Shown one piece after another: positions 2,955-60,640 of a stretch of DNA of 60,649 bases. The notes below the pieces were generated by a model that saw nothing but the letters and a program-made list of their open reading frames with translations, ran no database searches and had not been told where the DNA came from. How positions within the stretch are numbered: the stretch's first letter is position 1; every line of letters begins with the position of its first letter. The position numbers and the translations under genes were made by a program. Origin of the DNA: Candidatus Harrisonbacteria bacterium RIFCSPLOWO2_01_FULL_44_18 (lineage in GTDB: Bacteria; Patescibacteriota; Minisyncoccia; UBA6257; WO2-44-18); NCBI GenBank assembly GCA_001817915.1, contig MHJJ01000002.1, positions 207 through 60,855 of the forward strand. Reading direction: 5' to 3'.

Positions 2955-3045
2955 AGCCAATGCGAATCAACTTTGCGATTCCCGGAAACGGGGTCAATAT
3001 TTGGGATTTCGGGAATCCAACGGATTCCCGAAATCCATGAGATGA
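2955..3045. repeat. CGGGAATC-type intergenic palindromic repeat
   Basis: AATCAACTTTGCGATTCCCG, then TATTTGGGATTTCGGGAATC and its complement. The same units recur several times at 7390-7765. The repeat lies between the converging M23 and nrdJ genes. No gene or clear U-tract terminator is seen. Confidence 0.7.
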
Positions 3046-7301: not shown

Positions 7302-7337
7302 CTCCCGTTATGCTCGCTATAGCGAGCATAACGGGAG
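7302..7337. repeat. R9 palindrome, copy 1
   Basis: A perfect 36-nt palindrome with half-site CTCCCGTTATGCTCGCTA. Related copies are at 53282-53325 and 53975-54010, with arm bases that differ but still pair. It is about 50 nt upstream of the -35 box of the phase-variable gene. Confidence 0.85.
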
Positions 7338-7389
7338 TAAAAAACAAAATCAATTTCTGGACTTTGCTCTGGTTCGAGGCGCAGCTAGA

Positions 7390-7765
7390 TTAAACTTGAC
7401 GATTCCCGGGGAATAAACAGGCTGCGTTAACGGGAATCCACGACGAACGAATGCGAATTAACTTGGCGATTCCCAAAACAGCCTACGGCAGACGGCGGTG
7501 AATCAATTTTGGAATTCCCGGAAACGGGGTTAATATTTGGGATTTCAGGAACCCGATGGGTTCCCGAAATCCACGGGAATCTGGGGTTTCGGGAATTCGC
7601 TGGATTCCCTACGGGGTTAATATTTGGGATTTCCGAGGTTAAATCAACTTTGCGATTCCCGAAACGGATAGAAGCATCTATCGGTTTCGGGAATCGGGGC
7701 CAACAAATGGATTCAATATTTGGGATTTCGGGAAGCCGCTGGATTCCCGAAATCCGTTCCGGGAA
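7390..7765. repeat. Array of CGGGAATC palindromic repeats downstream of ftsZ
   Basis: This gap holds at least five imperfect copies of AACTTTGCGATTCCCG, TATTTGGGATTTCGGG and GGATTCCCGAAATCC, in alternating orientation, able to form nested hairpins. The ORF at 7509-7793 is only a translation of these repeats. The rest of 7253-7390 holds the R9 palindrome and no gene. Confidence 0.75.
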
Positions 7766-11188: not shown

Positions 11189-11404
11189 CTATGACAATCC
11201 CAATTTTTTAGCTCGCTCAAATTCTTTGCGTTTTTGTTCGCGATGAAGAGCCGATAATCTTCTTTTATTGCGATTAATCGGCCGATGATAAGATCGCCTT
11301 TTTTTCGACTCGCGCAAAATACCGCTTTGTTGAACTCTTTTCGAAAAGCGGTATAAAAGCGAACTGGTTGATTCTCCCGCGCGTTTTTTTACTTCCATAG
11401 TCAT
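11189..11404 (-). CDS. rpsU: Small ribosomal subunit protein bS21
   Basis: 71 residues from ATG 11404. The sequence EVKKRAGESTSSLLYRF followed by a very basic KKRR/NKRR region and a HREQKRKEF tail matches bS21, which sits near the 16S 3' end and the Shine-Dalgarno duplex. The ORF-track start (MRSKM) reads into the R1 repeat; the real ATG is at the end of the R1 hairpin (GCAAAATG), exactly as for pilB. Confidence 0.88.
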   Translation of the reverse strand: MTMEVKKRAGESTSSLLYRFSKRVQQSGILRESKKRRSYHRPINRNKRRLSALHREQKRKEFERAKKLGLS

Positions 11405-11460
11405 TTTGCTTCGCAAAATCGCGAACTCCGCTGACTTAACGCGGACTTACGCGGAAACGC
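11403..11460. repeat. R1 element (half form) at the rpsU start
   Basis: Hairpin ATTTTGCTTCGCAAAAT, then CGCGAACTCCGCTGACTTAA and CGCGGACTTACGCGGA. Nearly identical to the copy at the pilB start (21936-21990). It fills the gap between rpsU and the HIT gene. Confidence 0.8.
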
Positions 11461-11466
11461 GAAACT

Positions 11467-11877
11467 TTATAGTTGTCGGATCTTTTTTGCTGTTTCGGCT
11501 AAAGATTCGACTGGCGGATTGTTGACGACTGAATGAATTGATTTTCCGCCATCATTATTGAACCTCGGTATAATATGAATATGCAAATGATCAACTACTT
11601 GACCGCTGGCTCTGCCCTGATTAATTCCGATGGTAAATCCGTCCGGCTGAAACGCTTTATTTAAAGTACCAGTTACTTTCTTAACAGTCAAAAGCGTCGG
11701 GCCCAACTTGCTATCATCTAATTCCAAGATATTGGCCGCGTGGCTTTTGGGAATAATCATTGTATGCCCCGGCGCCCGCGGAGTAATGTCTAAAAAAGCC
11801 AAAGTTTCATCATCTTCATAAACAACCTCGGCTTTTATTTCCTTTTTAGCGATCCTGCAAAAAAGACAATCTGCCAT
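11467..11877 (-). CDS. HIT family nucleotide hydrolase (HinT-like)
   Basis: 136 residues with the histidine-triad motif HLHIHIIPRF and the GFTIGINQGRASGQ strand typical of HinT. These enzymes hydrolyse nucleoside phosphoramidates such as aminoacyl-AMP. CLFCRIAKKEI at the N-terminus is the usual start, with two Cys that bind zinc in some members. It lies between hisS and rpsU in the same orientation. Confidence 0.92.
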   Translation of the reverse strand: MADCLFCRIAKKEIKAEVVYEDDETLAFLDITPRAPGHTMIIPKSHAANILELDDSKLGPTLLTVKKVTGTLNKAFQPDGFTIGINQGRASGQVVDHLHIHIIPRFNNDGGKSIHSVVNNPPVESLAETAKKIRQL

Positions 11878-11904
11878 AACTTTATAAACCTTATGAACTT
11901 TTAA

Positions 11905-13206
11905 CTATTTTAGCTTGCGCTTGATTACATCGGCCATTTTTTTGAGCGGAACGGTTTCTTGGGTGCCGTAATGAAGGTCGCGAATAATTATAGACTCCTC
12001 AAACGCTTCTTTCTGCCCAAAAATTAAAGCTAACGGGCATTTAAATTTGTCAGCTGAACGCAATTGAGCTTTTAACGAGTCCTTGCCCAAAGATTCTAAA
12101 ATATCAATGTTGTTATTTCTTAACTCTTCTATTAATGTCAGACTTTTCTTTTTTGCTAAGTTCCCAATATGGATAAGAAATACTTTATTTTTTGTCTTCA
12201 TCGGAAAAATAATGTTACTCGCCTTAATAACCTCAATCAAACGTTCCAAGCCGATAGCGCCTCCAACTGCCGAGGAATGACGCCCGCCCAGCAGCTCGAT
12301 CAAATAATCATAACGGCCGCCGCCAGCCAAAGCCGAATAAAAGCCTTCGGCAAAAATTTCAAAAACCGTGCGATTATAATAATCCAATCCGCGCACTAAA
12401 TGATTATTAAGATTGTAAGGCAATTTCAATTCCTCAATATATTCCAAAACTGCCTTAAAATGGCTATTGCAGAAACCGCATAAATTATCAAGCATTATCG
12501 GCGCGTCCTTTTTTAAATCCTGACAATCCTTGTTCTGGCAATCTAATAATCTTAACGGGTTGGTCGTCAATCTTCGCCGGCAATCCCTGCAAAGATGCCG
12601 CTCGCGGCTTTTATAATAATTCTGAAGTTTTTGCCGGTAAGCCGGACGGCAATTTTTACAGCCGATCGTATTAATCTGAATAGTTAATTTTTTAATCTTC
12701 AGCCCTTCAATCGCCCGGTAGCAAGCCAAAATAACCTGCGCGTCGTAAATCGGGTCATCGTCATGAGAAATCATCTCAAAACCGGCCTGATGGAATTGTC
12801 GAAAACGGCCGGCCTGTGGCTGTTCATATCTGAACATAGGACCCTCGTAATAAAGCTTAAGCGGTTGCGCGATATGGCTTAGACCATGTTGAATATAAGC
12901 TCGAGCAATAGAAGCGGTGCCTTCCGGACGCAAAACCAGACGGTCTTTCCCTTTGGATTTAAAAACAAACATTTGTTTCTCAACAACATCGGTGGTCTCT
13001 CCCAAAGATCGTTCAAAAAGCTCGGCTCGCTCCAAAATCGGCGTATCAATTCTTAAAAAACTATAATACTCGGCTATTTCTTTGACTTGGCGCTTGATTC
13101 GATTCCAAAAAACCTGATCCTGCGGCAAAATATCATGCATCCCTTTAGGAGTTTGCAATGCCAAAGCTTTATTTTTTTTTGATGTTTTATTTGTTTTTTT
13201 TCTCAT
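11905..13206 (-). CDS. hisS: Histidyl-tRNA synthetase
   Basis: 433 residues, class II synthetase. GMHDILPQD near the N-terminus and the motif 2 region MFRYEQPQAGRFRQFHQAG are clear. The histidine-binding motif GLDYYNRTVFE and the motif 3 region with GLERLIEV also match. Four CxxC-type pairs in the insertion domain (CKNC, CRDC, CQNKDC, CGFC) suggest a zinc site, seen in some bacterial HisRS. The C-terminal anticodon-binding domain is about 90 residues. It starts after a short TTCTTAATTCTTAG repeat; AGGGG 9 nt before the ATG may be a weak ribosome-binding site. Confidence 0.95.
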   Translation of the reverse strand: MRKKTNKTSKKNKALALQTPKGMHDILPQDQVFWNRIKRQVKEIAEYYSFLRIDTPILERAELFERSLGETTDVVEKQMFVFKSKGKDRLVLRPEGTASIARAYIQHGLSHIAQPLKLYYEGPMFRYEQPQAGRFRQFHQAGFEMISHDDDPIYDAQVILACYRAIEGLKIKKLTIQINTIGCKNCRPAYRQKLQNYYKSRERHLCRDCRRRLTTNPLRLLDCQNKDCQDLKKDAPIMLDNLCGFCNSHFKAVLEYIEELKLPYNLNNHLVRGLDYYNRTVFEIFAEGFYSALAGGGRYDYLIELLGGRHSSAVGGAIGLERLIEVIKASNIIFPMKTKNKVFLIHIGNLAKKKSLTLIEELRNNNIDILESLGKDSLKAQLRSADKFKCPLALIFGQKEAFEESIIIRDLHYGTQETVPLKKMADVIKRKLK

Positions 13207-13237
13207 TCTTAGTCCCCTACTTCTTAATTCTTAGTTC

Positions 13238-13786
13238 TTAGTACCTCGGCGCGGCAAATGCCTTAAGATAGGTCAACGGCAAAAGCCGCAGTCTGGCTAA
13301 ACCAATAATGTCGTCTTTCGGAACCGGTCCCCAATTGCGCGAATCATAACTATAATAGCGGTTATCTCCCAAAACATAGTACTCATTGTCCTTTAGCAAA
13401 ACTTCTATGTTCCCCGCGGTTTTTATATCAGAGCGGATATAATCCTCATTAATGTTAAATCCTTCGGGTTTTTGATTGTTGAAAATAGTGAGTTGATTGT
13501 TTTTGATTGACAGTTTTTCGCCGGGCAAACCGATAATTCTTTTAATGTAATACGTTGACGGATCATTGGGATACCGAAAAACAATCACTTCTCCCCGCGC
13601 GGGTTCTCGGAAACGATATGTTATTTCATCTATCAAAAGATAGTTGCCGTCGGAGAAATTCGGCTCCATGCTTGCGCCGCTTACCAAAAACGGCTGAATT
13701 AAAAAAGTTCGAACCAGAAATACGGTTACGGTCGCGATAACCACTATTTCTAAAACCTCCCAAGCCGATAACAAAAATTGCTTCAT
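13238..13786 (-). CDS. lepB: Signal peptidase I
   Basis: 182 residues. One N-terminal membrane helix (about 10-28) is followed by the catalytic Ser39 in SGASMEPN and the general base Lys82 in YYIKRIIGLPGE; box D GDNRYYSYDSRNWGPVP is intact. It cleaves Sec signal peptides such as those predicted for several secreted proteins in this window. The C-terminal piece YLKAFAAPRY is short. It lies upstream of hisS with a 31-nt gap filled by a simple repeat. Confidence 0.95.
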   Translation of the reverse strand: MKQFLLSAWEVLEIVVIATVTVFLVRTFLIQPFLVSGASMEPNFSDGNYLLIDEITYRFREPARGEVIVFRYPNDPSTYYIKRIIGLPGEKLSIKNNQLTIFNNQKPEGFNINEDYIRSDIKTAGNIEVLLKDNEYYVLGDNRYYSYDSRNWGPVPKDDIIGLARLRLLPLTYLKAFAAPRY

Positions 13787-13832
13787 AATGGACTTACTTT
13801 ACTACAAAAATGCCGAGTAAACAAGATGTTGC

Positions 13833-13866
13833 AATCTATCGACTTGCGATGTCGATAGATTGTTGC
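13833..13866. repeat. REP-like hairpin
   Basis: CAATCTATCGAC, a short loop, then GTCGATAGATTG. A 22-nt match to one arm recurs at 14051-14073 inside the transposase remnant. Confidence 0.65.
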
Positions 13867-13881
13867 TAAAGTAAATTTCAT

Positions 13882-14175
13882 ATGCGGATCAGGATGGTAG
13901 CAAATAATATTTATCACGTTCTCAGCCGCGGCGTAGATAAAAGAAAAATCTTCTTGGAAGATCTGGATTATTTGCGTTTCATTCATGATATGTTTGAGTT
14001 TAATGACACAGAGCCCGCGACTAACGTCAACTATTTTTTCCACAGTCAACCCCAATCTATCGACATCGCAAGTCCATATATTAGAGGTAAACGGACGCTA
14101 GAAAAACAAAAACCAAGAAAATTACTAATAGAAAGGAGAGCAGGATTCGAACTTGGCTCAAATTCTCTCTTCTAA
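13882..14175 (+). pseudogene. REP-associated (IS200-like, Y1) transposase remnant
   Basis: The first 50 residues (NNIYHVLSRGVDKRKIFLED, then YLRFIHDMFEFND) match the N-terminus of RAYT/Y1_Tnp proteins common in Parcubacteria. After the PATNVNYF segment a REP copy (14051-14073) is translated in frame (QSIDIAS). A KPRKLL piece of the same family follows, then unrelated sequence. The HUH motif and the catalytic Tyr are missing, so it is inactive. Nearby REPs are its expected substrates. The ORF-track entry 13783-14055 on the minus strand is a shadow. Confidence 0.75.
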
Positions 14176-14204
14176 ATTTGACGCTAGTTCGAATCCTGCT
14201 CTCC
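14135..14204. repeat. Inverted repeat of tRNA T-arm/acceptor-like sequence
   Basis: Perfect 19-bp arms: GGAGAGCAGGATTCGAACT on the left, AGTTCGAATCCTGCTCTCC on the right, with about 32 nt between. The right arm reads like a tRNA T loop (TTCGAAT) plus 3' acceptor strand, but no D arm or anticodon arm exists on either strand. Probably two head-to-head tRNA 3' ends left by mobile-element activity. Confidence 0.7.
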
Positions 14205-14221
14205 TATGATAAACTGATATC

Positions 14222-14680
14222 ATGAATCTAAAACTAAAACTCATCATCGGCCTTGGCAATCCGGATCCGAAATATCAAAACACCTACCACAATGTTGGCC
14301 ATCTTTTCATTGATTATTTAACTAAAAGCTCACAACTAAAAACTAAAAACTTAAAAACAGATGTGTATATGAATGAGTCCGGCCGCTTTGTTGCCCGAAC
14401 TTTGAAAAAACATAATGCAAATCCCAAAGAATTATTGATAGTTCACGACGACAGCGACTTAGGGCTTGGAACTTATAAACTCCAATTTGGCCGCGGAGCG
14501 GCCGGCCATCATGGCATAGAAAATGTCATCAAAGTCCTAAAAACGAAAAACTTCTGGCGATTGAGAATCGGAATAAGGCCGCCTCAAGAAAAAACTCGAC
14601 AGAGGGCCGAAAAATTCGTGCTTAAAAAAATATCCACCGCTGATAAAAAAAGTTTGGAGGGAGTTTTTGAAAAATTATAG
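14222..14680 (+). CDS. pth: Peptidyl-tRNA hydrolase (shortened)
   Basis: 152 residues against about 185-195 usually. It frees peptidyl-tRNAs dropped by ribosomes. GLGNPDPKYQNTYHNVGH carries the conserved Asn and catalytic His; YMNESG, HDDSDLGLGTYKL (Asp) and GRGAAGHHGIENVI are present. The region between NVGH and YMNESG is shorter than normal, and is replaced by TKSSQLKTKNLKTD, coded by an AACTAAAAACT-type simple repeat of the kind seen in gaps here. No Shine-Dalgarno; a TATGAT box lies 11 nt before the ATG. Confidence 0.9.
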   Translation: MNLKLKLIIGLGNPDPKYQNTYHNVGHLFIDYLTKSSQLKTKNLKTDVYMNESGRFVARTLKKHNANPKELLIVHDDSDLGLGTYKLQFGRGAAGHHGIENVIKVLKTKNFWRLRIGIRPPQEKTRQRAEKFVLKKISTADKKSLEGVFEKL

Positions 14681-14715
14681 AAAAATTGTAGTCCCCATGT
14701 CACATGTCACATGTC

Positions 14716-16191
14716 TCACTTAATCTTAAGACTCACTTGAAATGAAACTGTCCCGTCCGGATTGGTTTCAATGCTCGCTAACGGCAAAAAAACATCGGCG
14801 AAATTAGGTTCGGCCGCAAGGCGGTTTTTAAAATTTATGGCTGCCGCTTCGCTGGCGGCCGCGCCATTCACTAAAACCGAATTATTCGTGTAATCGGCGT
14901 AAACTCGATCCATGGCGACAGCTTGACCGGCGATAACGTTTAATTTTTCAAAAAGCGGCGAGCGCTTAGGGCTTTGTTTAGCGGCGCCGGAAGCAAGTTC
15001 CACCAAACGATTTAACTCCTTAGCCCCATCCTGAAGCTGGGTAATTTCGTTAACCGCGGGCGCCGCTAAACCCAATCCCAGCTGCCGTTTAATCGCGTTA
15101 AGATTATGGGCGAAAAAACTGTCAACGATTATAAAAGCCAAAAAAATAAAACCAAGGCTGGCCAAAATCGCGTTTCTCCAAATATCAATAAAATTCATAA
15201 TCTGCCAGCGATAATAACGCTCTTCAGTTCCGGCCGCGGCCAAAGAAATCAAATCGTCTTGAGATCTGGGAACCAAACCGCGCAAAGCGGCTCCCAAAAC
15301 GCCAAACCAGTTCGGCAACAATTTATCATAATTTTTCAAAGTCAACTGCCTAACTTCCAGCCGAAAATTTTCTTGCAATAACGCCGTAATTTCTTTGCTT
15401 AAGGCGGAGCTTAACAAAATAACTTCCCCTACCTGTCCGCTCCAATGCGCTGCGTAAAAATTTATTAATCGCTGAACTTCTTTTTTAATAAATTCGTCCA
15501 GCGAACCGGCCGCTAGCGACTTCCATGGATGAAAATAGCTGAAGTACAAATTGCCGTTGCGCAAAATCATAAAATTCAACCCGTCGCCGGAAACATCCAG
15601 CAAAAAGTACGGCTGCTTAATATCTACGCCATTCCCCTCTTCCTTTACCAGTCTGGCCAAAGCCAACGAAGAAAATTCTATTGTCACCACTTCAAAATTG
15701 GCTTCGCGCAAGGCGTCGGTAAATTCGTCAACGATCGCGGAGTTGATAAAAGCTCCCAAAATTTCCAGCTGGCCGCCTTCGCTGGCAATTTCACCGACGG
15801 CCTGCCAATCATAGTAAGCCGTTTTCGCGTCAATGGGCGAAATCATCTGCAAATTAAGCTTCGCGGCGTCAACTAGCGACTTTCCAGACAAAAAAGGCAG
15901 ATTAAAAACCTGGCTGTACACGCTGCCGGAAGAAAGAGAAGCGATCACGTGCGCTTTTTTCTTGACCGGCGCTATTCGCGCGTGAAGACTGTTTAGCGCC
16001 GCTATGAAAGTACGGCGATCTTTAATTCTTCCTTCTTCTATGACACCCGGAGGCAATCCCAAGGAAGATTTTATTGTTTCGCCGTTTCGGATCCTAAGAT
16101 ATTTTAATGACGAATCGGTAATTTCTAAACCGCCCACAAGCGGAGATGGATTCAAGAATTTTAACAATTTTCGCAGAGTGTCCTTTCCCAT
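14716..16191 (-). CDS. pilM: Type IV pilus assembly PilM-PilN fusion-like protein
   Basis: 491 residues. The N-terminal two thirds is an actin-like PilM domain (LEITDSSLKYLRI and VIASLSSGSVYSQVFNLP). A single membrane helix near residue 345 (LASLGFIFLAFIIV) is followed by a periplasmic coiled and alpha/beta region ending in FADVFLPLASIETNPDGTVS, as in PilN. Separate PilM and PilN normally link the cytoplasmic ATPase to the outer parts; here they look fused. The start is ATG 16191, touching an R1 repeat (GCGAACAATG). It is the last gene of the pilus operon. Confidence 0.75.
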   Translation of the reverse strand: MGKDTLRKLLKFLNPSPLVGGLEITDSSLKYLRIRNGETIKSSLGLPPGVIEEGRIKDRRTFIAALNSLHARIAPVKKKAHVIASLSSGSVYSQVFNLPFLSGKSLVDAAKLNLQMISPIDAKTAYYDWQAVGEIASEGGQLEILGAFINSAIVDEFTDALREANFEVVTIEFSSLALARLVKEEGNGVDIKQPYFLLDVSGDGLNFMILRNGNLYFSYFHPWKSLAAGSLDEFIKKEVQRLINFYAAHWSGQVGEVILLSSALSKEITALLQENFRLEVRQLTLKNYDKLLPNWFGVLGAALRGLVPRSQDDLISLAAAGTEERYYRWQIMNFIDIWRNAILASLGFIFLAFIIVDSFFAHNLNAIKRQLGLGLAAPAVNEITQLQDGAKELNRLVELASGAAKQSPKRSPLFEKLNVIAGQAVAMDRVYADYTNNSVLVNGAAASEAAAINFKNRLAAEPNFADVFLPLASIETNPDGTVSFQVSLKIK

Positions 16192-16193
16192 TG

Positions 16194-16306
16194 TTCGCTA
16201 TCGCTCACCGCTGACTTACGCCGACTTTACGCAGACTTACGCGGAAAAATTTCTGCGTAGTTCTGCGTTCATTCTGCGTCGGTCTGCGATTTTACGAAGT
16301 AAAACA
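16194..16306. repeat. R1 element between pilM and the pilX-like gene
   Basis: GTTCGCTATCGCTCACCGCT, then units of GACTTTACGCA/GACTTACGCGGA, an AT-rich centre, units of TTCTGCGT and a terminal hairpin TTTTACGAAGTAAAA. Its ends are almost identical to the copy at 20066-20224. It reaches from the stop of the upstream gene to the ATG of pilM. Confidence 0.85.
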
Positions 16307-16307
16307 T

Positions 16308-16718
16308 CTATTGAAGCGCGACTTCCTTAATTGACTGGATTTCAATTTTGCCGGTTATGGAATTGACTTCAACTACCGCCTGCAACTGACGAAATTTATT
16401 GGCTGCCTTAGCCTTGACGGTGATCAAAGATTTGCCGATTCCCGCGCACGAATCTTTGCAAACGGCTACCGTAGCCAAACGACTGCCAACCGTTAAAGTG
16501 TATCCGGCGGTAGAATAATTTTTGTCGCGGATTATTCTAATAATACCATCTTCAATGCCCGCTTGAGCAGCGGCTAAGGCTTCGGCCGAAAGTCGAACGC
16601 CTAAATTGGCATTATTAAGCAGATACACCAAAAGAGCGCCCGCGATTCCCAACTCGACAATAACGGCGCTTAGAAGTAAAACTGTTGGCAAAAACGCTAT
16701 GCCTTTCATCTGCTCCAA
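16308..16718 (-). CDS. Pilus-associated membrane protein (PilX-like)
   Basis: 136 residues with one N-terminal membrane helix (FLPTVLLLSAVIVELGIAGAL) and a small extracellular part with one CKDSC pair. The position between minor pilin and pilM genes and the AQAGIEDGIIRI helix resemble PilX-type minor pilins, but no clear prepilin cleavage motif is visible. The function is inferred from context. It overlaps the next upstream gene by 13 nt. Confidence 0.6.
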   Translation of the reverse strand: MEQMKGIAFLPTVLLLSAVIVELGIAGALLVYLLNNANLGVRLSAEALAAAQAGIEDGIIRIIRDKNYSTAGYTLTVGSRLATVAVCKDSCAGIGKSLITVKAKAANKFRQLQAVVEVNSITGKIEIQSIKEVALQ

Positions 16719-17605
16719 TTTATTATTATGTCATCGACGCGGGGACTGTTAATCCCCAAAGAGTCGGTTTTTAAAAAAATCCGGTAACGAACATACCGTT
16801 TATTATTATGATGCGCTAAATTAATTTTAATTGGCGCGTCCGGACCGGCTGGCTGATAAAATGTCGTATCCGAACCGTCGGGGCCCGAAAAGTTCCATGG
16901 CCCGGCAAGATTATTTGAACTGGTAATCTGAAATTTAACTTCGCCGCCGTTAAGCGCGCCTTGCCACATAATAGTATTGATGGCCGCGCCCAAACCCACT
17001 TGAGTGTCAAAAATACTTGAAGTCAAACTAGCGCTAACGGGAGAAGGCGGGCCCCAAGAAGTTTTGACGCGATAATCAGAAACGCCGCAGGTGTTGCCTA
17101 TGCCGCTATTGTCGCAATTAAAACTAATCCAGCCAATCGCGTCATTCCAAGCCCAGCCGTTAAATTCGCCGGCGCTAATCGTAACTTTGTAATTTGTCGA
17201 GGCGCAGCTGCTGGTATTTTGACAATTAAAAGAAATCCAGCCGATATTGTCATTCCAAGCCCAGCCCGAAAGATTGCCGACGCCGTCATTTGTAATTTTC
17301 CAATCGCCGGCAGGACCAGAACAAACATTGCCGTTTGGAGTGGTGGCGCAATCAAAAGCAATCAAGCCGACCTGTGAACTGGCATAACCTTCAATTTTAG
17401 TATTAGTAACCGTAACTGTGGTTGTGATATAAAAATCGATCCAGCCGATTTTATCATTCCAGGCCCAGCGCTCTGGGGTCAGGGAGCTAATGTTGGTGGC
17501 AGCCGTCACTAAGCGCGGCGATAGTAGAAAGTAGAAAGTAAAAAGTAAAACGATTATCAATAAGAGAATTTTTATCGTGTTATTTTTCAAAATCCCGACA
17601 GTCAT
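16706..17605 (-). CDS. Secreted protein with WAWNDxIGWI repeats
   Basis: 299 residues. An N-terminal signal or anchor segment is partly coded by a CTTTCTACTTTCTAC simple repeat (17521-17545). The mature part has three copies of a Trp-rich unit, WAWNDKIGWIDF, WAWNDNIGWISFNC and WAWNDAIGWISFNC, about 40 residues apart, the last two with Cys that could cross-link. A beta-sandwich-like C-terminus follows. Such repeats are frequent in Parcubacteria surface proteins, with no known function. It lies inside the pilus operon, so it may be a pilus-associated adhesin. Confidence 0.65.
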   Translation of the reverse strand: MTVGILKNNTIKILLLIIVLLFTFYFLLSPRLVTAATNISSLTPERWAWNDKIGWIDFYITTTVTVTNTKIEGYASSQVGLIAFDCATTPNGNVCSGPAGDWKITNDGVGNLSGWAWNDNIGWISFNCQNTSSCASTNYKVTISAGEFNGWAWNDAIGWISFNCDNSGIGNTCGVSDYRVKTSWGPPSPVSASLTSSIFDTQVGLGAAINTIMWQGALNGGEVKFQITSSNNLAGPWNFSGPDGSDTTFYQPAGPDAPIKINLAHHNNKRYVRYRIFLKTDSLGINSPRVDDIIINWSR

Positions 17606-17629
17606 ATAATTATATTCTCTATTCGCTGT

Positions 17630-17657
17630 TTACTGTTTACTGTTTACTGTTTACTGT
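17630..17657. repeat. TGTTTAC simple repeat
   Basis: Four tandem 7-nt TGTTTAC units in a gap inside the pilus operon. Confidence 0.8.
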
Positions 17658-17660
17658 CCT

Positions 17661-18287
17661 CTAATACCCTTGTATTTTTATTGAACCCGGAGCAGAAGTA
17701 AAATCAATATTGCTCGCGCTGTCAAATTTGTTATTTACATCGCTGATCGCGCCCGTTTGGCCGTTTCCGCCGGACCAATCGCTTTGCCGAAAAACCGAAT
17801 TTTGGCTTCGCGTCAGATATTTAACCATCTTAACATCAACTATTCCTCCGACTTGAACCCACTCCGTGACGGCGGTAATTTTTTGAGTGGAAGGATCTTC
17901 GGCGCCGCCAACATCAACAATATTATCTCCCGCGTCGCGTAAAACATTTTCTACCGTAAAGTAACGCATGTAAGCGGCGCCATCAGCCGTCACCTCTTCA
18001 ACATCGCTTAGCGAAACAAAAACGCCGCTGGAAGAACTCAAATAATACTTGGCTGATAGACCCTTTGGCGAAAGATTATAAATATCGTGCCAGCTTTTTT
18101 CGGCAACAGATGTAACGCTGTCCAACAACGCCTGAGAAAGAATAGAGGCGGCTTGAAAAGATTTTGACTGCGAGCCGGTGCGTAAAGTTAAAAGAATCGC
18201 TCCGGCCGCCGTTCCCAGTATTAAAGTGCCAATAGTTATTCCAATGACTACCTCTATTAAAGACTGGCCATTACTGCGTTTCTTCAT
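17661..18287 (-). CDS. Minor pilin (PilV-like)
   Basis: 208 residues. The N-terminus NGQSLIEVVIGITIGTLILG has the prepilin Glu at position 5 of the mature form and the long hydrophobic helix used for membrane insertion and pilus packing. The globular part is unlike known pilins. It overlaps the 18271-18786 prepilin gene by 17 nt, so the two are translated together. Confidence 0.8.
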   Translation of the reverse strand: MKKRSNGQSLIEVVIGITIGTLILGTAAGAILLTLRTGSQSKSFQAASILSQALLDSVTSVAEKSWHDIYNLSPKGLSAKYYLSSSSGVFVSLSDVEEVTADGAAYMRYFTVENVLRDAGDNIVDVGGAEDPSTQKITAVTEWVQVGGIVDVKMVKYLTRSQNSVFRQSDWSGGNGQTGAISDVNNKFDSASNIDFTSAPGSIKIQGY

Positions 18288-18786
18288 ATTCTATCGTTCC
18301 CGCATCGGTGAGTTTGACAGTTTTGAGTAAATTAGAAATTCCACTGGCCAAACCTAGATCAATTTTGTCGGGACTGGCGGGCAGGCCGGTAAGTTTACTG
18401 AAATTAATTTCTTTCTCGCCCACGCTGCAGCCAGAAGAAACTAAAGCGTTCTCGCACGGATCGAAAAACGCGATGCTGGGCCTTAAAAAAACAGTGGCAT
18501 AGGCCAAGCCGTCGTTATAATTCTGGCCGCTAAAAAGCGTGTAATAATCTTTCCCCACCAACGCCGGATTGCTGAAATGAACGCCCCACTGCTGTCCTAA
18601 TTCTTGGGTAATGGAATTTTGTTGGGCGTCCCTTAAAAACGCCACTAAATGCTGGGTTTCCAAATTTAAGTCCTGCCTTTGGCGAAAACCAAATAAATTC
18701 ATAAAACCAACGCTGGCGATTATGGCGGTAATGCCAAGAACAATAACAATCTCTAGAAGAGTAAAAGCTCTAAAAGTTGCCCTCAT
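18271..18786 (-). CDS. Prepilin-like protein (GspH/FimT-like)
   Basis: 171 residues. FRAFTLLEIVIVLGITAII is a class III prepilin signal with Glu5. The helix continues into RQDLNLETQHLVAFLRDAQQNSI, as in GspH/FimT minor pilins. One Cys pair (CENALVSSGC) may form a disulphide in the globular part. It is transcribed with pilC upstream. Confidence 0.82.
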   Translation of the reverse strand: MRATFRAFTLLEIVIVLGITAIIASVGFMNLFGFRQRQDLNLETQHLVAFLRDAQQNSITQELGQQWGVHFSNPALVGKDYYTLFSGQNYNDGLAYATVFLRPSIAFFDPCENALVSSGCSVGEKEINFSKLTGLPASPDKIDLGLASGISNLLKTVKLTDAGTIEYEETQ

Positions 18787-18853
18787 ACTTTTTAGTATAA
18801 CATATTTTTGCGCGCCTCACTATTACTTTACTGCCGAACGGCGGCGAGACGCG

Positions 18854-20065
18854 TTAGAATTGGCCCACGAGTTGATAGATCGGCACGATTATTGAAAGAG
18901 CGATGATACCGATAACTCCTCCGATGAATAAGAGCATTACCGGCTCGATGAAAGAAACCATGGCCTTAACAGTAGAATCGATTTCCGATTCATAAAATTC
19001 CGCGAAAGTCTGCAAGATCTCATCGATGTGGCCGGCTTTTTCGGAAATCGCGATCAAGTTGCTCACCGTGGCCGGGAAAACAGCCTCCTTCCGAAAGGCC
19101 TCGCCAAGCGTTAAACCACGAGTCACCCCCTCGCGCGCGATCCTCTTTAAGCTTAGCCGCAAATCCTCTTTATCAACCGCGTCAGCGGTAATCTCCAGCG
19201 CGTCAACAATGGGCAGTCCCGCTTTCATCAAAGAAGACAGAGTAAGGGCAAAACGTTGAAGCGCGATCTTATGAAGAACGTCCTTTACAAGGGGGACGTG
19301 ATTTATGAATTGACTGAGCAGCCGCCTGCCGATTTTATTTCGAGTCGCGAAATACCAGCCGCCGATAATCAACAAAGCCAATGAAATTAAAATGGGTAGG
19401 AGATAATTGCCTATAAATAAGCCTATGCCGAAAACGACTCTGGAAAATAGCGGCGGCGCAAAACCGCTGCCTAAAAAAATACCGGCGATGCGCGGCAAAG
19501 CAAAAGTTATTAAAAATATCAAAATCAAAACCGAAACGGTCAAAAGCAAAACCGGATAAATCAGCGCCGAACGAATGCGGTTCCGCAGATTCATCTCTTT
19601 TTCCAACGATTGGCTAAGGTTTTCAAAAACCGTTTCTAGGTTGCCCGACGCCTCTCCGGCTTTAACCAAATTAACAAAAACCGGTGAAAAAAATTTTGGA
19701 TAACGGGCGAAGGTGCTGTAAAACGGCTGGCCTCTTTCCAAATCTGTTTTTATTTCAATCAAAAGTTCCCGCAAAACCGGTTTTTTGAAATCGGCTATTA
19801 AAATATCCAGAGCCCGGAACAAATCAGTACCAACTCCCAACATTAACGACAGATATTTAGTCAGGAAAACTTTATCAACAACGGATATGGCCTGGCCCCA
19901 AAATCTTCTTGGCATCCTTTGTTCCAGTCCTTTGACTTGCTGGATTGATACCGGCTTCAAGCCTTTTGTGGCCAAAAATGTCAAAACGTCGGCAGTCCCC
20001 TGCGCGTCAATATTGCCCTCTATTATTTCCCCATTTGGTTGTGACGCAACGTAATGAAATCTCAT
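18854..20065 (-). CDS. pilC: Type IV pilus inner-membrane platform protein PilC
   Basis: 403 residues of the GspF/PilC family, with two repeated T2SSF domains and three membrane helices (near 170, 220 and 380). LMLGVGTDLFRALDIL and LSSLMKAGLPIVDALEI are the paired family motifs. It connects the PilB ATPase to pilin insertion. Its ATG directly follows the end of an R1 element (GCGAACAATG), so the 5' leader is R1 sequence. Confidence 0.93.
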   Translation of the reverse strand: MRFHYVASQPNGEIIEGNIDAQGTADVLTFLATKGLKPVSIQQVKGLEQRMPRRFWGQAISVVDKVFLTKYLSLMLGVGTDLFRALDILIADFKKPVLRELLIEIKTDLERGQPFYSTFARYPKFFSPVFVNLVKAGEASGNLETVFENLSQSLEKEMNLRNRIRSALIYPVLLLTVSVLILIFLITFALPRIAGIFLGSGFAPPLFSRVVFGIGLFIGNYLLPILISLALLIIGGWYFATRNKIGRRLLSQFINHVPLVKDVLHKIALQRFALTLSSLMKAGLPIVDALEITADAVDKEDLRLSLKRIAREGVTRGLTLGEAFRKEAVFPATVSNLIAISEKAGHIDEILQTFAEFYESEIDSTVKAMVSFIEPVMLLFIGGVIGIIALSIIVPIYQLVGQF

Positions 20066-20224
20066 TGTTCGCTATCGCTCACCGCTGACTTACGCCGACT
20101 TTACGCAGACTTACGCGGATGAAACCTGTTGGTTTCCGCAGACACTCGCGGACTTTACGCAGATAATCGCAGAAAATAATTCTGCGTGATTCTGCGTCGG
20201 TCTGCGGTTTTACGAAGTAAAACA
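20066..20224. repeat. R1 element between pilC and pilB
   Basis: Same termini as the copy at 16194-16306 (GTTCGCTATCGCTCACCGCT at one end, TTTTACGAAGTAAAA at the other) with a longer centre that has an extra CAGACACTCGCGGACTTTACG stretch. It reaches from the pilB stop to the pilC ATG. Confidence 0.85.
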
Positions 20225-20225
20225 T

Positions 20226-21935
20226 CTACTCTCTGATAACCCTAAATACCTCTTCTAGTGTAGTTACGCCCTGCTCGACTTTTCTCAAGCCATCTTCAAA
20301 CATTGTTATCATTCCTTCTTTTCGGGCTAAATCTCGCAACGCGTCCAATGAAAAACTCGGACTCACGATGAGTTTCCTCACCTGCTCGCTGACATTGAGA
20401 ACTTCAAAAATTCCCAGCCGGCCCTTGTAGCCGGTATTGGCGCAGGCATAACAGCCGGCCCCCTTATAAAGCATTTGCGGAGGAGCAAATTTTGATTCCA
20501 AATTAAGTTCTTTCATCTGTTGTTTAATCGCTTCAAGAATTTCCTGCCCGGGTTTATAAGAAACTCGGCAATCCTGACAAATCCGTCGGACTAATCTTTG
20601 CGCTTCTATGGCATTGAGAACCGCCGCCACCAAAAACGGCTCTATCTTCATGTCTATCAAGCGCGGCACGGCAGTCACCGCGTCGTTGGTGTGCAAACTC
20701 GAAAGCACTAAATGGCCGGTGAGGGCCGCCTGAACGGCAATCTCCGCGGTTTCTTCGTCGCGAATCTCTCCCACCATAATAACATTTGGGTCCTGCCTTA
20801 AGATAGCCCGCAAACCGTTGGCAAAAGTGATCCCCGCTACCGGATTAATCTGAGTCTGATTGATATATTTCATGTCATATTCTATCGGATCCTCCACTGT
20901 GACGATATTCACTTCGGGCCTGTTCAAAGTATTTAATACTGAATAAAGAGTGGTGGTTTTGCCGGAACCGGTGGGTCCGCAAACCAAAACCATGCCGTAA
21001 GTTTTAAAAATATTTTCGGTGATCAATTTGATTGTGTCTTCAAACATTCCCAATTCCTCGGATGATAACGGCCGCTGAGTGGCGGCCAAAAGACGCATCT
21101 CAATTTTTTCGCCGTAAAGAACCGGCATCACCGCCACTCTCGTGTCAATCAAATCATTTCCGATCTTATACCGAAAACGCCCGTCTTGCGGCTTAAAATG
21201 TTCGTCTAGTTTCAGTCCGGCCAATAATTTTATTCTGGCGATAATTGAAGGATGAATCGGTTTTGGCATCCTGATAATTTCATGCAGAATGCCGTCAATT
21301 CTATAACGTATTAACACTCCCTCTTCCAAAATTTCTATATGGATATCGGATGCCCTAAGAGAAACGGCATGATTCAAGATATTATCCACAATCGCCACCA
21401 CGGGCAATTCCACGGCCGCTTCTTTGGCTCCGGCCGCTCGCGAACGCAACGTGGCTTTAATATTTTCTTCAATGAGTTTTTTAAAATCTTCCGCAGTCCG
21501 CTGGCCATAAAGAGCAAACCCCTTGTTGAGATCGTCGGGCGACGCCAGAAAAGGTTTAATACTCGCTTTCAGCGCCTTTTCCAAAAACTCAATTATATTC
21601 AAATCGCTGGGATCTTCCATCGCCGCTTGCAAAGCTCCATCGGGTTCGCGGCTAAAAATTATGGCTCGCTTTTGCCTGGCCAAATCTTCGGGCAAAAGCT
21701 TTAAAATATTTTCATCGATCGGGCGGGTTAATAAATTCGCTTTTTCAACGCCGAAATAATTTGCCAGGGCGCTAAGATAATACTCAAAGGTGATAATATT
21801 GCGGCTGATTAAAACATCGGCCACGCCATAATTCATTCTTTGGGCGTCCTTTAAAACTTCCTCAAAAAGTTCCGGAGCGACTAATTGATCTTTAATCAAA
21901 AGCTCTTTTAATTTTTGGTCAGGAATTTGAATCAT
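20226..21935 (-). CDS. pilB: Type IV pilus extension ATPase PilB
   Basis: About 569 residues from ATG 21935. The ORF-track start (MRSKM) comes from the R1 hairpin. An N-terminal GspE_N domain is followed by the hexameric ATPase with Walker A GPTGSGKTTT, Asp box EDPIEYD, Walker B VIMVGEIRDEETA and the His box GHLVLSSLHTND. A tetracysteine zinc site (CQDC and CYAC) is typical of PilB/GspE. It powers pilus extension. No pilT retraction ATPase is in the window. Confidence 0.95.
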   Translation of the reverse strand: MIQIPDQKLKELLIKDQLVAPELFEEVLKDAQRMNYGVADVLISRNIITFEYYLSALANYFGVEKANLLTRPIDENILKLLPEDLARQKRAIIFSREPDGALQAAMEDPSDLNIIEFLEKALKASIKPFLASPDDLNKGFALYGQRTAEDFKKLIEENIKATLRSRAAGAKEAAVELPVVAIVDNILNHAVSLRASDIHIEILEEGVLIRYRIDGILHEIIRMPKPIHPSIIARIKLLAGLKLDEHFKPQDGRFRYKIGNDLIDTRVAVMPVLYGEKIEMRLLAATQRPLSSEELGMFEDTIKLITENIFKTYGMVLVCGPTGSGKTTTLYSVLNTLNRPEVNIVTVEDPIEYDMKYINQTQINPVAGITFANGLRAILRQDPNVIMVGEIRDEETAEIAVQAALTGHLVLSSLHTNDAVTAVPRLIDMKIEPFLVAAVLNAIEAQRLVRRICQDCRVSYKPGQEILEAIKQQMKELNLESKFAPPQMLYKGAGCYACANTGYKGRLGIFEVLNVSEQVRKLIVSPSFSLDALRDLARKEGMITMFEDGLRKVEQGVTTLEEVFRVIRE

Positions 21936-21990
21936 TTTGCTTCGCAAAATCGCGGACTCCGCTGACTTAACGCGGACTTACGCGGAAATA
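21936..21990. repeat. R1 element (half form) at the pilB start
   Basis: ATTTTGCTTCGCAAAAT hairpin, CGCGGACTCCGCTGACTTAA, then CGCGGACTTACGCGGA. Near-identical to the copy at the rpsU start (11403-11460). Confidence 0.82.
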
Positions 21991-21994
21991 CGAA

Positions 21995-22570
21995 TTAAAT
22001 ACTTAAATATTTTACGATCGGCAAAGCCGAAAGCCACCTACTTACTATTATAGATAAAATGGCGACTGGAATCCAAAGGTAATAAAGGGAGACTCGACGC
22101 GATAACCGATGACCGATGACCAATGACAAAATAAGCGCGGCGATCAAAAGAAACAATAAATAAAAAATCCAGCCGGGATGACCGACTAAAAATATTGACG
22201 CCGCCAATAAATACGGTTCTTCTTCATAAAAAAATCTTTCCTGATATTTTTTATTCAAAAATTTCGCGGCTATAAAAAATAAAATGGCGATAATTAAAGA
22301 AATCAAATAAGTCGCCCAGAATCGGAAAAAGACATAATAAAAAAAATATCCTATGTCTTGATGCGGCGGGAGCAAAAACCTGGCCGGCGAGTCCGAATTA
22401 AGCCAGAGAAAATATTGACTGGCCGACCAATAAACTAGAATGGCGGCGATGACGATGGGCGATAATAAAGACGATAAACGGATCAAAGAAAACTTTAAGG
22501 GGCGCCGTATTAATTGCGCCCCAAAAAGAATCGCTAGAATTGCCAAACTAAAACCCAATATTAAACGCAT
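21995..22570 (-). CDS. Multi-pass membrane protein of unknown function
   Basis: 191 residues with about five or six hydrophobic helices, including ILGFSLAILAILFGAQLI, LLSPIVIAAILVYW and IFYLLFLLIAALILSLVIG, and short polar loops. No catalytic motif is visible and it does not look like the A24 prepilin peptidase (no paired Asp motif). Its place between the major pilin and pilB suggests a pilus-related or export role, by context only. Confidence 0.6.
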   Translation of the reverse strand: MRLILGFSLAILAILFGAQLIRRPLKFSLIRLSSLLSPIVIAAILVYWSASQYFLWLNSDSPARFLLPPHQDIGYFFYYVFFRFWATYLISLIIAILFFIAAKFLNKKYQERFFYEEEPYLLAASIFLVGHPGWIFYLLFLLIAALILSLVIGHRLSRRVSLYYLWIPVAILSIIVSRWLSALPIVKYLSI

Positions 22571-23148: not shown

Positions 23149-23440
23149 TTTTTTGAAAACATTAAAAATTGTCGACTTTTTATTATTCTTATTTATTATA
23201 CAATACCTTCGGAAATTATAAGAATCGCAGTTATCCACAGCTATTGAAAATTTTATAGTTGCCCCAAGCTTCGGCAATTTGTTAATTGCCTATGCCGTAA
23301 CTTAAAGCTCCACGGCAAACGCTTTTTTTCTTAACAATCACCAAAGGTGATTGTTCGTAATTGAATTAGTCCACGAACAGCTTCCGCTACCCGTGCCTTG
23401 TTACGACTTCTGCCATGTTGCCGAGCCTACCTTAACCCCT

Positions 23441-23568
23441 CTTTTGGCTACAAGCCAAAAGCGCGGACGGTCGCGGACTTCACGCGGACTAACGCAGAAA
23501 AAATAATTCTGCGTTCTTCTGCGTACTGTCTGCGTAATTCTGCGCTTTTGTCCGCTTGCGGACAAAAG
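23441..23568 (-). repeat. R1 insertion in 16S helix 44 tip (V9)
   Basis: Bracketed by hairpins CTTTTGGCTACAAGCCAAAAG and CTTTTGTCCGC/GCGGACAAAAG, with R1 arms (TCGCGGACTTCACGCGGA; TTCTGCGTTCTTCTGCGTA) between. Flanking AACCCCT and AGGGGTT pair, so the insert extends helix 44. Confidence 0.85.
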
Positions 23569-23844
23569 AGGGGTTTCAGATATTCCCGGTTCCCCTGCAG
23601 TGACGGGCGGTGAGTACAGGACTCGAGAACGTATTCACCGCGGCATGGCTGATCCGCGATTACTAGCGATTCCAGCTTCATGAGGGCGAGTTGCAGCCCT
23701 CAATCCGAACTGAGGCCGCTTTTGATGGGATTAGCTCCGCCTTACGGCTTAGCAACCCATTGTAGCGGCCATTGTAACACGAGTGTAGCCCAGGGCATCA
23801 GAGGGCCATGCGGATTTGACGTCATCCCCGCCTTCCTCCCCCTC

Positions 23845-24022
23845 CTTTGTTCGCAAACGAATAAAGGAAATTCCAAATCACAAATTCCAAATCCCAAACA
23901 ATACTCAATAACCAAAATCCCAATGACCAAAACTCGTGTTTAGGGTTTGGAAATTTGAATTTTGAATTTGTTTGTAATTTAGCGTTTGTAATTTGGCGCT
24001 TCCTTTGCGCTTGTGCGCAAAA
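23845..24022 (-). repeat. Insertion in 16S helix 39 tip (V7), different repeat family
   Basis: 178 nt replacing the loop between CCCCCTC and GAGGGGG. Its core is an AT-rich repeat (AAATTCCAAATCACAAATTCC, later TTTGAATTTTGAATTTG) not related to R1. Like R1, it has a hairpin at each end (CTTTGTTCG/CGAATAAAG and GCGC-rich CTTTGCGC/GCGCAAAAG). Confidence 0.82.
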
Positions 24023-24101
24023 GAGGGGGCGGTCTCCGATGACACATATAACATCGGATAGGGGTTGCGCTCGTTACCCCACTTAAGGGAACAATTCAAA
24101 T

Positions 24102-24132
<31 letters not shown>

Positions 24133-24257
24133 TCCGACGTCCTTGAGAGAAAATACTCCTTTCGGAATATCGTCGTCGGAATTTCAAGCCCTGGTAAGGT
24201 TCTTCGTTTACTATCGAATTAAACCTCATGTTCCACCGCTTGTGCGAGTCCCCGTCT

Positions 24258-24289
<32 letters not shown>

Positions 24290-24394
24290 TCCCAGGCGGC
24301 AGACTTAACGCGTTAGCTACGCCGCTCCGAGGGTCGATACTCGAAACAGCTAGTCTGCATCGTTTAGGGCGTGGAATACAAGGGTCACTATTGT

Positions 24395-24448
24395 TACTTC
24401 GTAACAATCGCGGACTTACGCAGACTTCACGCGGACATACGCGGAAAT
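24395..24448 (-). repeat. R1 sequence in the P9 region of the 16S intron
   Basis: Hairpin TTGTTACTTCGTAACAA followed by CGCGGACTTACGCAGACTT and CACGCGGACATACGCGGA: a half-form R1, like those at rpsU and pilB. Confidence 0.78.
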
Positions 24449-24519
24449 CAAATGCCGCAATTCTACGAGGATAAAACATTTCTGTTTACCTCTGCATATC
24501 GCTATGCAGGTCGGACTAT

Positions 24520-24653
24520 ATCTTCATCCTCGCTCGCTTCGCTCGCGCGCGGAACAATACTGACTTTACGCAGACCTGCGCAGAAAATAAATTCTGCGTT
24601 GGTCCGCGTCCAGTCTGCGACTGTCCGCGCGTTTCACAAATTGAAACGAGGAG
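24520..24653 (-). repeat. R1 sequence in the P8 region of the 16S intron
   Basis: GCTCGCTTCGCTCGC hairpin, GACTTTACGCAGACCTGCGC, an AT-rich centre, TTCTGCGTTGGTCCGCGTCC and the CGTTTCACAAATTGAAACG hairpin. It lies between the R and S strands of P7, i.e. in P8. Confidence 0.78.
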
Positions 24654-25320
24654 CTCGGCGTGTAGTCTCTACGGGGTCATTTAAGACTTCCCTCGGTGTT
24701 TTCCTATTTCAACAGGATGTTCACCGATATAGCCAAGTTACAATTAGTATTGCTACTAAAAGAGACACAGGGCCCTACCATCCGCCTCGCTAACAAAGCG
24801 AGGTGTTTTTAAATTTTTGGTCGAGGACATGTTGCTTCTTCGGAACATCTCGGAGGCGGTTTTGCTTGGTTCGGTCGTTTTACATTTCAGCCGACCGAAA
24901 AACCGCCGAGAGCGAAGCGCCATTTGCCGCTGGAGCAAATGGACGTTGTTTCCGAAAAGCAACTGTCCGATGGTACCAAAAATTCTAGAAAATGGCGGGC
25001 CGTATCTAATCCTTTTTTCTGCCCACGCTTTCGCGCACTGAGGGTCAGGAATGCCCCAGCTGACTGCCTTCGCCTTCGGTGTTCCGCATGATATCAACGG
25101 ATTTCACCCCTACACCATGCGTTCCGTCAGCCTCTGGCATCCTCTAGCTCGGCCGTTTCCATTGCAGCCCCACTGTTGAGCAGTGGGATTTAACAACAGA
25201 CTAACCGAGCCCCCTACGCGCTCTTTACGCCCAATAAATCCGGATAACGCTTGAGGCCCTCGTATTACCGCGGCTGCTGGCACGAGGTTTGCAGCCCCTT
25301 ATTCAACTGGTACGGTCAAT

Positions 25321-25447
25321 CGTGCCTCGCTGCTGCGAGTCACGCGCAGACTCTCGCAGACGTCACGCAGAATAACGCAGAAAATTTCTGCGACCGTCTG
25401 CGTCAATTCTGCATACTTCTGCGCGTGCCTCACAAAAGTGAGGCACG
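25321..25447 (-). repeat. R1 insertion in 16S helix 17 (V3)
   Basis: Left hairpin CGTGCCTCGCTGCTGCGAG, R1 arms (CGCAGACTCTCGCAGACGT; TTCTGCGACCGTCTGCGTC), right hairpin CGTGCCTCAC/GTGAGGCACG. Ordinary 16S sequence resumes on both sides. Confidence 0.87.
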
Positions 25448-25790
25448 ACTTCATCCCAGCTAAAAGCAGTTTACAGACCGAAGCCCTTCTTCCTGCACGC
25501 GGCGTCGCTCGATCAGGCTTTCGCCCATTGTCGAATATTCTCGACTGCTGCCTCCCGTAGGAGTACGTTCCGTTCTCAGTAACGTCGTTGGGGAACAGCC
25601 TCTCAGCTCCCCTACCGGTCATAGCCTTGGTAGGCAATTACCCTACCAACTAGCTGATCGGACCTAAGCCCATCTTTGAGCGGCTCGCGCCTTTACTCTT
25701 GCGAGACTATCAGATATTACCCCGGGTTTCCCCGGACTATCTCTGACTCAAAGGTAGGTACTAGGGTATTACTAACTCGTTCGCCACTTG

Positions 25791-25908
25791 CCAATGCCGT
25801 GCATTGGCCGCGGACTTACACAGACTTCACGCAGACTTTCGCAGAATTTTACTTCTGCGTTTTTCTGCGTTTGTTCTGCGTCGTTCTGCGGTCAGTGCAC
25901 AGCACTGA
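25791..25908 (-). repeat. R1 insertion in 16S helix 6 (V1)
   Basis: Left hairpin CCAATGCCGTGCATTGG, R1 arms (CGGACTTACACAGACTTCAC; TTCTGCGTTTTTCTGCGTTT), right hairpin TCAGTGCACAGCACTGA, directly before CGTTCGACTTGCATGCC. Confidence 0.87.
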
Positions 25909-25980
25909 CACGTTCGACTTGCATGCCTTATCCACGCCGCCAGCGTTCATCCTGGACCAGGATCAAATCCTCTTAAATAT

Positions 25981-53281: not shown

Positions 53282-53325
53282 CCTACTCCCGTTATGCCCG
53301 CTATAGCGGGCATAACGGGAGTAGG
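53282..53325. repeat. R9 palindrome, copy 2 (44 nt, perfect)
   Basis: Half-site CCTACTCCCGTTATGCCCGC, then TA|TA and the exact complement. It lies between the stop of the PaaX/Cas2-like gene and the promoter of the downstream surface-protein genes. Confidence 0.88.
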
Positions 53326-53959: not shown

Positions 53960-53988
53960 ATTATAAATAATTCTCTTCCGTTATGCAA
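53960..53988 (-). promoter_or_regulatory. Promoter of the PaaX/Cas2-like gene overlapping an R9 palindrome
   Basis: TTGCAT (inside the palindrome 53975-54010), 17 nt, TATAAT, 10 nt before ATG 53949. Confidence 0.65.
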
Positions 53989-54010
53989 GCTATAGCGTGC
54001 ATAACGGGAG
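53975..54010. repeat. R9 palindrome, copy 3 (imperfect)
   Basis: CTTCCGTTATGCAAGCTATA on one side, GCGTGCATAACGGGAG on the other, with two mismatches. It covers the -35 box of the PaaX/Cas2-like gene. Confidence 0.85.
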
Positions 54011-60611: not shown

Positions 60612-60640
60612 GTCCGCGCTTGCCCCGAGCGCAAGGCGTA
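60588..60640. repeat. R1 element at the end of the flippase gene
   Basis: AAAGTTTCGCATTTCCGCGT, AAGTCCGCG, then a GCGCTTGC..GCGCAAGGC stem. It supplies the stop codon of the flippase and runs towards the window end. Confidence 0.6.

Follow-up and report, generated by a model that had tools for sequence, protein, structure and literature searches.

The stretch analysed here, referred to as the window (60,649 nt; G000:C2:207-60855), belongs to the 752-kb, 14-contig genome of an ultra-small bacterium of the Parcubacteria. On its minus strand, the genes for ribosomal protein bS21 (rpsU) and for three pilus proteins (PilM, PilC and PilB) each follow a copy of a palindromic repeat, R1:

11189-11404, minus strand: rpsU (bS21; TIGR00030, 3.4e-6, just below the cut-off), with a second ATG at 11396-11398
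11401-11466, minus strand: R1b copy between the stop codon of a HIT-protein gene (TAA, 11467-11469) and rpsU, 95% identical to the pilB copy; its 3' end carries the small hairpin ATTTTGCGAAGCAAAAT
14716-16191, minus strand: pilM-like gene (PF11104, 8.3e-4, below the Pfam cut-off; relatives have it with matching neighbours)
16192-16307, minus strand: R1a full hairpin from an upstream TAG to the pilM ATG, laid out as small hairpin, arm, loop, arm, small hairpin; flanked ATG...ATG
18854-20065, minus strand: pilC (T2SSF; PF00482, 3.7e-54), its start MRFHYVASQPNG common to relatives
20066-20225, minus strand: R1a composite, a complete element with one additional arm, from the pilB stop codon (TAG) to the pilC ATG; flanked ATG...ATG
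20226-21935, minus strand: pilB (PF00437, 1.5e-121), starting MIQIP, similar to MVQIP/MLQIP of relatives
21936-21994, minus strand: R1b copy from an upstream stop codon (21995-21997) to the pilB ATG, with the AT of that ATG in the small-hairpin stem

As the original prediction had it, R1 fills the entire gap between stop and start codon at all four genes, which by ORF coordinates amounts to 62 nt at rpsU (11405-11466), 116 nt at pilM (16192-16307), 160 nt at pilC (20066-20225) and 59 nt at pilB (21936-21994). In gene orientation, R1 comes right after the upstream stop and runs on to the ATG, and the repeat does form the 5' leader of these genes. The claimed near-identity within pairs of copies also holds, with 95% over 63 nt for rpsU and pilB (11401-11463 vs 21932-21994; D16) and 98% over 60 nt for pilM and pilC (16186-16245 vs 20060-20119; D2). 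The first pair represents a single-arm version, R1b, terminating in GCAAAATG, and the second a double-arm version, R1a, terminating in GCGAACAATG. Read along the gene strand, the TAA of the HIT gene is followed by AGTTTCGCGTTTCCGCG...GCAAAATG at rpsU, the pilB leader runs TTTAATTCGTATTTCCGCG...GCAAAATG, and at both pilM and pilC a TAG precedes ATGTTTTACTTCGTAAAA...GCGAACA and the ATG. Three further leader copies exist in this genome, upstream of rpsK (L006), an HU-like gene (L009) and a pilin gene (L007); at rpsK (encoding S11) and the HU-like gene the R1a ends abut the ATG, and at the pilin gene a 3-nt spacer intervenes.

That the repeat abuts an ATG stands for all four genes as far as the letters go, but at rpsU this codon is probably not the native start. 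S21 of relatives with the HIT-rpsU gene order has its start codon at the position corresponding to the second ATG found here (ATGGAAGTA, ATGGAAG, MEVKK), and the first ATG (11402-11404) was therefore probably made by the end of the repeat. The native start would then probably be the second ATG, 6 nt past the first, at a distance of about 5-6 nt from R1. The start codons of pilB, pilC and rpsK agree with those of relatives, and that of pilM is conserved approximately.

What kind of sequence is R1? Its arm reads CGCNGA-4nt-CGCNGA-5nt-CGCNGA-4nt-CGCNGA, four blocks spaced 10/11/10 nt or about one per helical turn, and many copies of this palindromic family consist of two facing arms around a short loop, with complementary CGCNGA/TCNGCG. 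The arms are often bordered immediately by a small perfect hairpin whose stem sequence varies by site: stems of at least 7 nt adjoin 25% of arm ends, as opposed to 0.5% with shuffled flanks, and 56% of rRNA flanks. In infB (HKITFIDT), valS (IPVYF) and lepA (YILNLIDT), with host sequence assigned by conserved protein motifs, the outer half of the stem is host coding sequence and the R1-side half an inverted copy of it; the lepA-site stem co-changes from genome to genome, as in CAAGTTGAGGA/TCCTCAACTTG and CAGGTTGAGT/ACTCAACCTG. At the variable position of the blocks, no covariation of the long arms was found (23 of 128 cases formed Watson-Crick pairs vs 41 expected on shuffling), and conservation of an RNA structure of the long arms through this position was rejected for want of such support. 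As a separate observation, insertions recur across Parcubacteria in the lepA loop ahead of the LNLIDTPGH motif, which makes this loop a hot spot (L008, L037, L047, L049, L122, L145, L147), and several lepA copies combine a GxxExxY-like segment, an R1 arm and a co-varying small hairpin.

An arm sequence model recovered 48 arms at E<0.01 from this genome, which were grouped into elements and classed using R1-masked rRNA queries. The 30 strong copies comprise 13 in ORFs, all in frame, nine that are intergenic and eight in rRNA genes. Among the coding hosts are valS, infB, adk, gltX, a rluD-like gene, rplU, glyS, tatD, pheS (twice), argS and pcm, and when GltX, PheS and L21 with their in-frame inserts are aligned to solved homologues, the latter show a gap exactly where R1 lies. 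The window itself holds the following copies in and beyond its 16S gene:

23442-23571, minus strand: full R1 element in the 3' region of the 16S gene (23359-25978), a small hairpin on both sides
24390-24445, minus strand: single R1 arm with a small hairpin in the 16S gene
24530-24655, minus strand: full R1 element in a peripheral loop of a group I intron in the 16S gene, an unmodelled insert in the RF00028 match (24492-24806)
25326-25448, minus strand: full R1 element in the 16S gene, a 119-nt insert relative to the Rfam model
25788-25912, minus strand: full R1 element at the 16S V1 stem tip, a 101-nt insert after AAGUCGAACGUGUCAGUGCUG
60590-60618, plus strand: truncated R1b copy that gives the stop codon (TAA of GCGTAAG) to a polysaccharide-export ORF (59316-60611)

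R1b is near-identical at two leaders and at two sites in the 23S gene, and recurs as a fragment, which implies spread. Both 23S copies are found in the 3' portion of the gene, beside GUGAGACAGG and the sarcin-ricin motif ACGAGAGGA; from the adjacent GATATAGTC motif we infer that both stand at the 3' ends of group I introns, although Rfam made no intron call at these two sites. Nor does Rfam hold a family that matches R1 itself. The 23S gene (L003, 2723-9900) exceeds 7 kb, with several introns or inserts as well as R1 copies, and its Rfam LSU match ends at 7447, yet the sarcin-ricin motif lies near 9560.

Further repeats were seen in the window. At 14134-14205, the right arm of a 31-nt inverted repeat (90%) resembles the T-arm and acceptor 3' half of a tRNA (GTTCGAATCCTGCTCTCCT) and faces an inverted copy, as if from snap-back synthesis. 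A second palindrome family, CTCCCGTTATGC..GCATAACGGGAG, has three copies (7302-7337, 53286-53321 and 53975-54010), and repeats with GGGATTTCGGGAA..TTCCCGAAATCC palindromes occur near the window start (2964-3042 and 7389-7761).

Is the position before start codons a matter of chance? Of the nine strong intergenic copies in this genome, six lay within 3 nt of an ATG, an excess with P of about 4e-7 (five of nine and about 1e-5 with rpsU set aside), values that come from a simple random model with ORF-based gene calls and include four copies with one end sequence in common. The model assumes 1.07 genes per kb and 10.3% intergenic DNA, and gives a point a probability of 0.0043 of falling 0-3 nt upstream of a start, or 0.041 if it is intergenic. 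Start-adjacent copies are hence above chance in this genome, but the suggested preference for stop/start junctions in operons is not borne out more broadly: with 13 of the 30 copies in ORFs and eight in rRNA genes, most are far from any start codon, which is largely the random placement that had been named as speaking against it. The same applies to the wider family. Of 150 distinct copies in other Parcubacteria, ORFs contain 101 and rRNA genes 21, and 28 are intergenic (some of the latter being unrecognised rRNA), and a likely start falls within one small hairpin's length for only about five of these 28. We therefore treat start adjacency as real in this genome and not as family-wide, since few intergenic copies elsewhere adjoin starts. 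The suggested target preference accordingly fails for the family and is possible for the subset here, where stop/start junctions might be favoured through insertion chemistry or through tolerance.

R1 is patchily distributed, occurring in 15 of the 61 genomes searched, with 35 arms in one Jorgensenbacteria genome, and was not detectable in any of seven same-family genomes. Across 85,462 species, matches came almost exclusively from Parcubacteria, the related records including Candidatus Jorgensenbacteria, Wolfebacteria, Liptonbacteria, Staskawiczbacteria and others; viral carriage was rejected, as the viral contigs searched gave zero matches. One contig labelled Nanoarchaeota (L147; JAUYPG010000026.1) bears a bacterial lepA with an R1 closely resembling Parcubacteria copies and is probably mis-binned. 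All genomes taken together, this one included, there are 114 CDS copies, and 110 of 135 distinct CDS arms use two of the six possible readings (54 + 56), a bias for which stop-codon avoidance alone does not account.

R1 was not found at the orthologous leader junctions of the relatives examined. Where the junction of pilB and pilC here reads GAGTAG-[R1]-ATG, that of G036 is GAATAATGAG (TAATG, with stop and start overlapping) and that of G028 GAGTAGTATG (TAGTATG). The pilM junction of relatives takes the forms TAATG, TAAGTTATG and TAAAAATG, at -1 to +5 nt; the HIT-rpsU spacer in G002 measures 2 nt; and rpsM and rpsK are mostly separated by an AT-rich spacer of 11-50 nt that is free of a ribosome-binding motif. 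With the same gene order, no R1 and overlapping or short junctions in relatives, the leader copies appear as insertions into compact junctions, and R1 fills the gap because no gap existed before it inserted.

Together, this suggests, with a probability of about 0.74, that R1 is a mobile-element family of Parcubacteria (class Paceibacteria) whose members are short, palindromic and non-autonomous and resemble the Rickettsia palindromic elements (RPE) in behaviour, and that its leader copies are tolerated. Its additional presence, both here and in many related bacteria, in rRNA genes and, in frame, in essential genes points to a DNA element that spreads rather than to a signal dedicated to translation. 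R1 would insert wherever an extra hairpin or peptide can be borne, that is at rRNA helix tips, in intron loops, in frame in surface loops of essential proteins and at stop/start junctions of operons. Having entered overlapping or short junctions, the copies at rpsU, pilB, pilC and pilM would necessarily become leaders abutting both codons, and the sublineages R1a and R1b, each with its own end hairpins, may have spread among such junctions. The leader copies would then be neutral, and would owe their position to tolerance and not to function. We saw neither a transposition event nor an empty site at strain level, and identified no mobilising enzyme for R1.

The best-known cases of palindromic elements entering essential protein genes in frame come from Rickettsia and Wolbachia. 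Mitochondria contain double-hairpin and repetitive hairpin-forming elements (DHE/RHE), whose hairpin units, like those of R1, are situated in spacers between genes, in intron loops and in rRNA; they differ in being organellar and R1 in having a long central hairpin between small ones, and we know of no sequence relation between the two. RPE are located between genes and, fused in frame, within conserved protein genes, as well as in the genes for tmRNA and RNase P RNA (PMC2229807). R1 fits this description, being palindromic, in frame in conserved protein genes and also present in intergenic DNA and RNA genes, and it shares with RPE and Wolbachia palindromic elements the short length and many copies. 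In contrast to both, its host belongs to an unrelated phylum, its arms are built of tandem CGCNGA blocks with 10/11/10-nt spacing, it enters 16S and 23S rRNA and group I introns, and its flanking palindromes are often site-specific. R1 would thus best be read as RPE-like by behaviour. The literature searched on palindromic repeats of Patescibacteria/Parcubacteria, in which few subscription papers were covered, describes no R1-like family, and as far as we found, an RPE-like family is new to Parcubacteria.

The exact abutment of six of nine intergenic copies (five without rpsU) exceeds random insertion, and something beyond tolerance may operate. One possibility, which we consider unlikely overall, is that an unknown transposition machinery targets R1a and R1b to ATG, or to stop/ATG, with ATG as a 3-bp target duplication. 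The copies at pilM, pilC and rpsK are flanked ATG...ATG, so that the empty site would be TAG-ATG or TA-ATG; the copy at the HU-like gene abuts its ATG despite a wide upstream gap; and R1b at the two 23S sites is followed by ATG or CATG. However, the fourth R1a copy (L009) has CTG at its 5' side, rpsU and pilB lack such a duplication, one Yanofskybacteria copy (L115) whose end resembles that of R1a has no ATG after it, and the majority of the family lies away from ATG. As for a MITE, of which constant terminal inverted repeats and a target-site duplication would be expected, ATG...ATG flanks were seen in three of four R1a copies, with none for R1b. Both insertion chemistry, in view of these flanks, and selection for harmless sites fit the start adjacency. 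It is similarly doubtful, if conceivable, that R1 spreads by an undescribed mechanism that makes palindromic junctions of host flank and inverted copy, such as snap-back synthesis or hairpin opening, and can be domesticated as a ready-made leader for translation initiation in lineages without an anti-Shine-Dalgarno sequence.

Might the leader hairpins control translation initiation or mRNA stability, as the original prediction offered as its second option? The genes concerned are suggestive (four pilus genes, two for ribosomal proteins and the HU-like gene), and the hairpin ends lie 0-4 nt from the ATG. Moreover, the 16S 3' tail, GGACTAATTCAATTA in this genome (window 23340-23380) and GGATTAATTAAATTTA in G043 (L022), lacks the anti-Shine-Dalgarno CCUCC, and five-base Shine-Dalgarno-like motifs precede few ORFs (12 of 162 vs 3 in the control); initiation in this lineage may consequently depend on leader context, which would leave room for a contribution of R1. 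Yet a conserved leader regulator is expected at the orthologous leaders, where all relatives examined lack R1, as do the same-family genomes, and R1 is far commoner at sites where a leader function is impossible. In addition, predicted start-codon accessibility in eight R1 leader folds scatters from 0.01 to 0.96, as compared with a background median of 0.42 (121 ORFs), on which ground we rejected a hairpin that uniformly sequesters or exposes the start codon. We thus see no sign of a conserved translation or stability signal; a regulatory role of R1 in leaders is not supported, and we regard it as quite improbable.

Still less probable is that RNase III or splicing removes the R1 copies as intervening sequences, so that the mature RNA lacks them. 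Several copies do sit in rRNA helix tips like bacterial intervening sequences, and some within group I introns. The main text of Tsurumaki et al. 2024 (PMC11270868) reports inserts at the tops or bases of stem-loops in CPR rRNA genes, many of them short and non-intron, among them short inserts in 23S that are like intervening sequences; in that main text, a search for the terms hairpin, palindrome and repeat returned no mention describing R1. These inserts resemble R1 in their location at rRNA stem-loops of CPR bacteria, but R1 is also found in proteins and leaders. The in-frame CDS copies with their biased frame use are expected only if R1 is translated, which argues against excision.

Mobilisation of R1 as a BIME/REP-like element by an IS200-type (RAYT, Y1) transposase is the least credible reading, since the R1-rich genomes G043, G056 and G026 lack a Y1_Tnp match, on which ground this driver was rejected: the inverted pairs of hairpin units do resemble BIMEs, and this genome has three Y1_Tnp genes as well as an ORF (13882-14175) that looks by eye like a probably truncated RAYT (Y1) N-terminus, but this ORF has no NCBIfam match, small-hairpin sequences vary among copies, a constant GTAG-type foot was not seen, and R1, unlike REP/BIME, is out of step with Y1 transposases and mostly inside genes.

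For genome annotation, R1 is a caution that annotated start codons and rRNA genes of CPR bacteria can be shaped by repeats, as at rpsU, where an extra, spurious ATG ahead of the native start seems to stem from the repeat. R1 has over 100 in-frame copies among Parcubacteria, besides those in rRNA, introns and leaders, and would constitute a second, independent and larger system beside that of Rickettsia and Wolbachia, in which to study how palindromic elements move and what makes reduced genomes tolerant of them.
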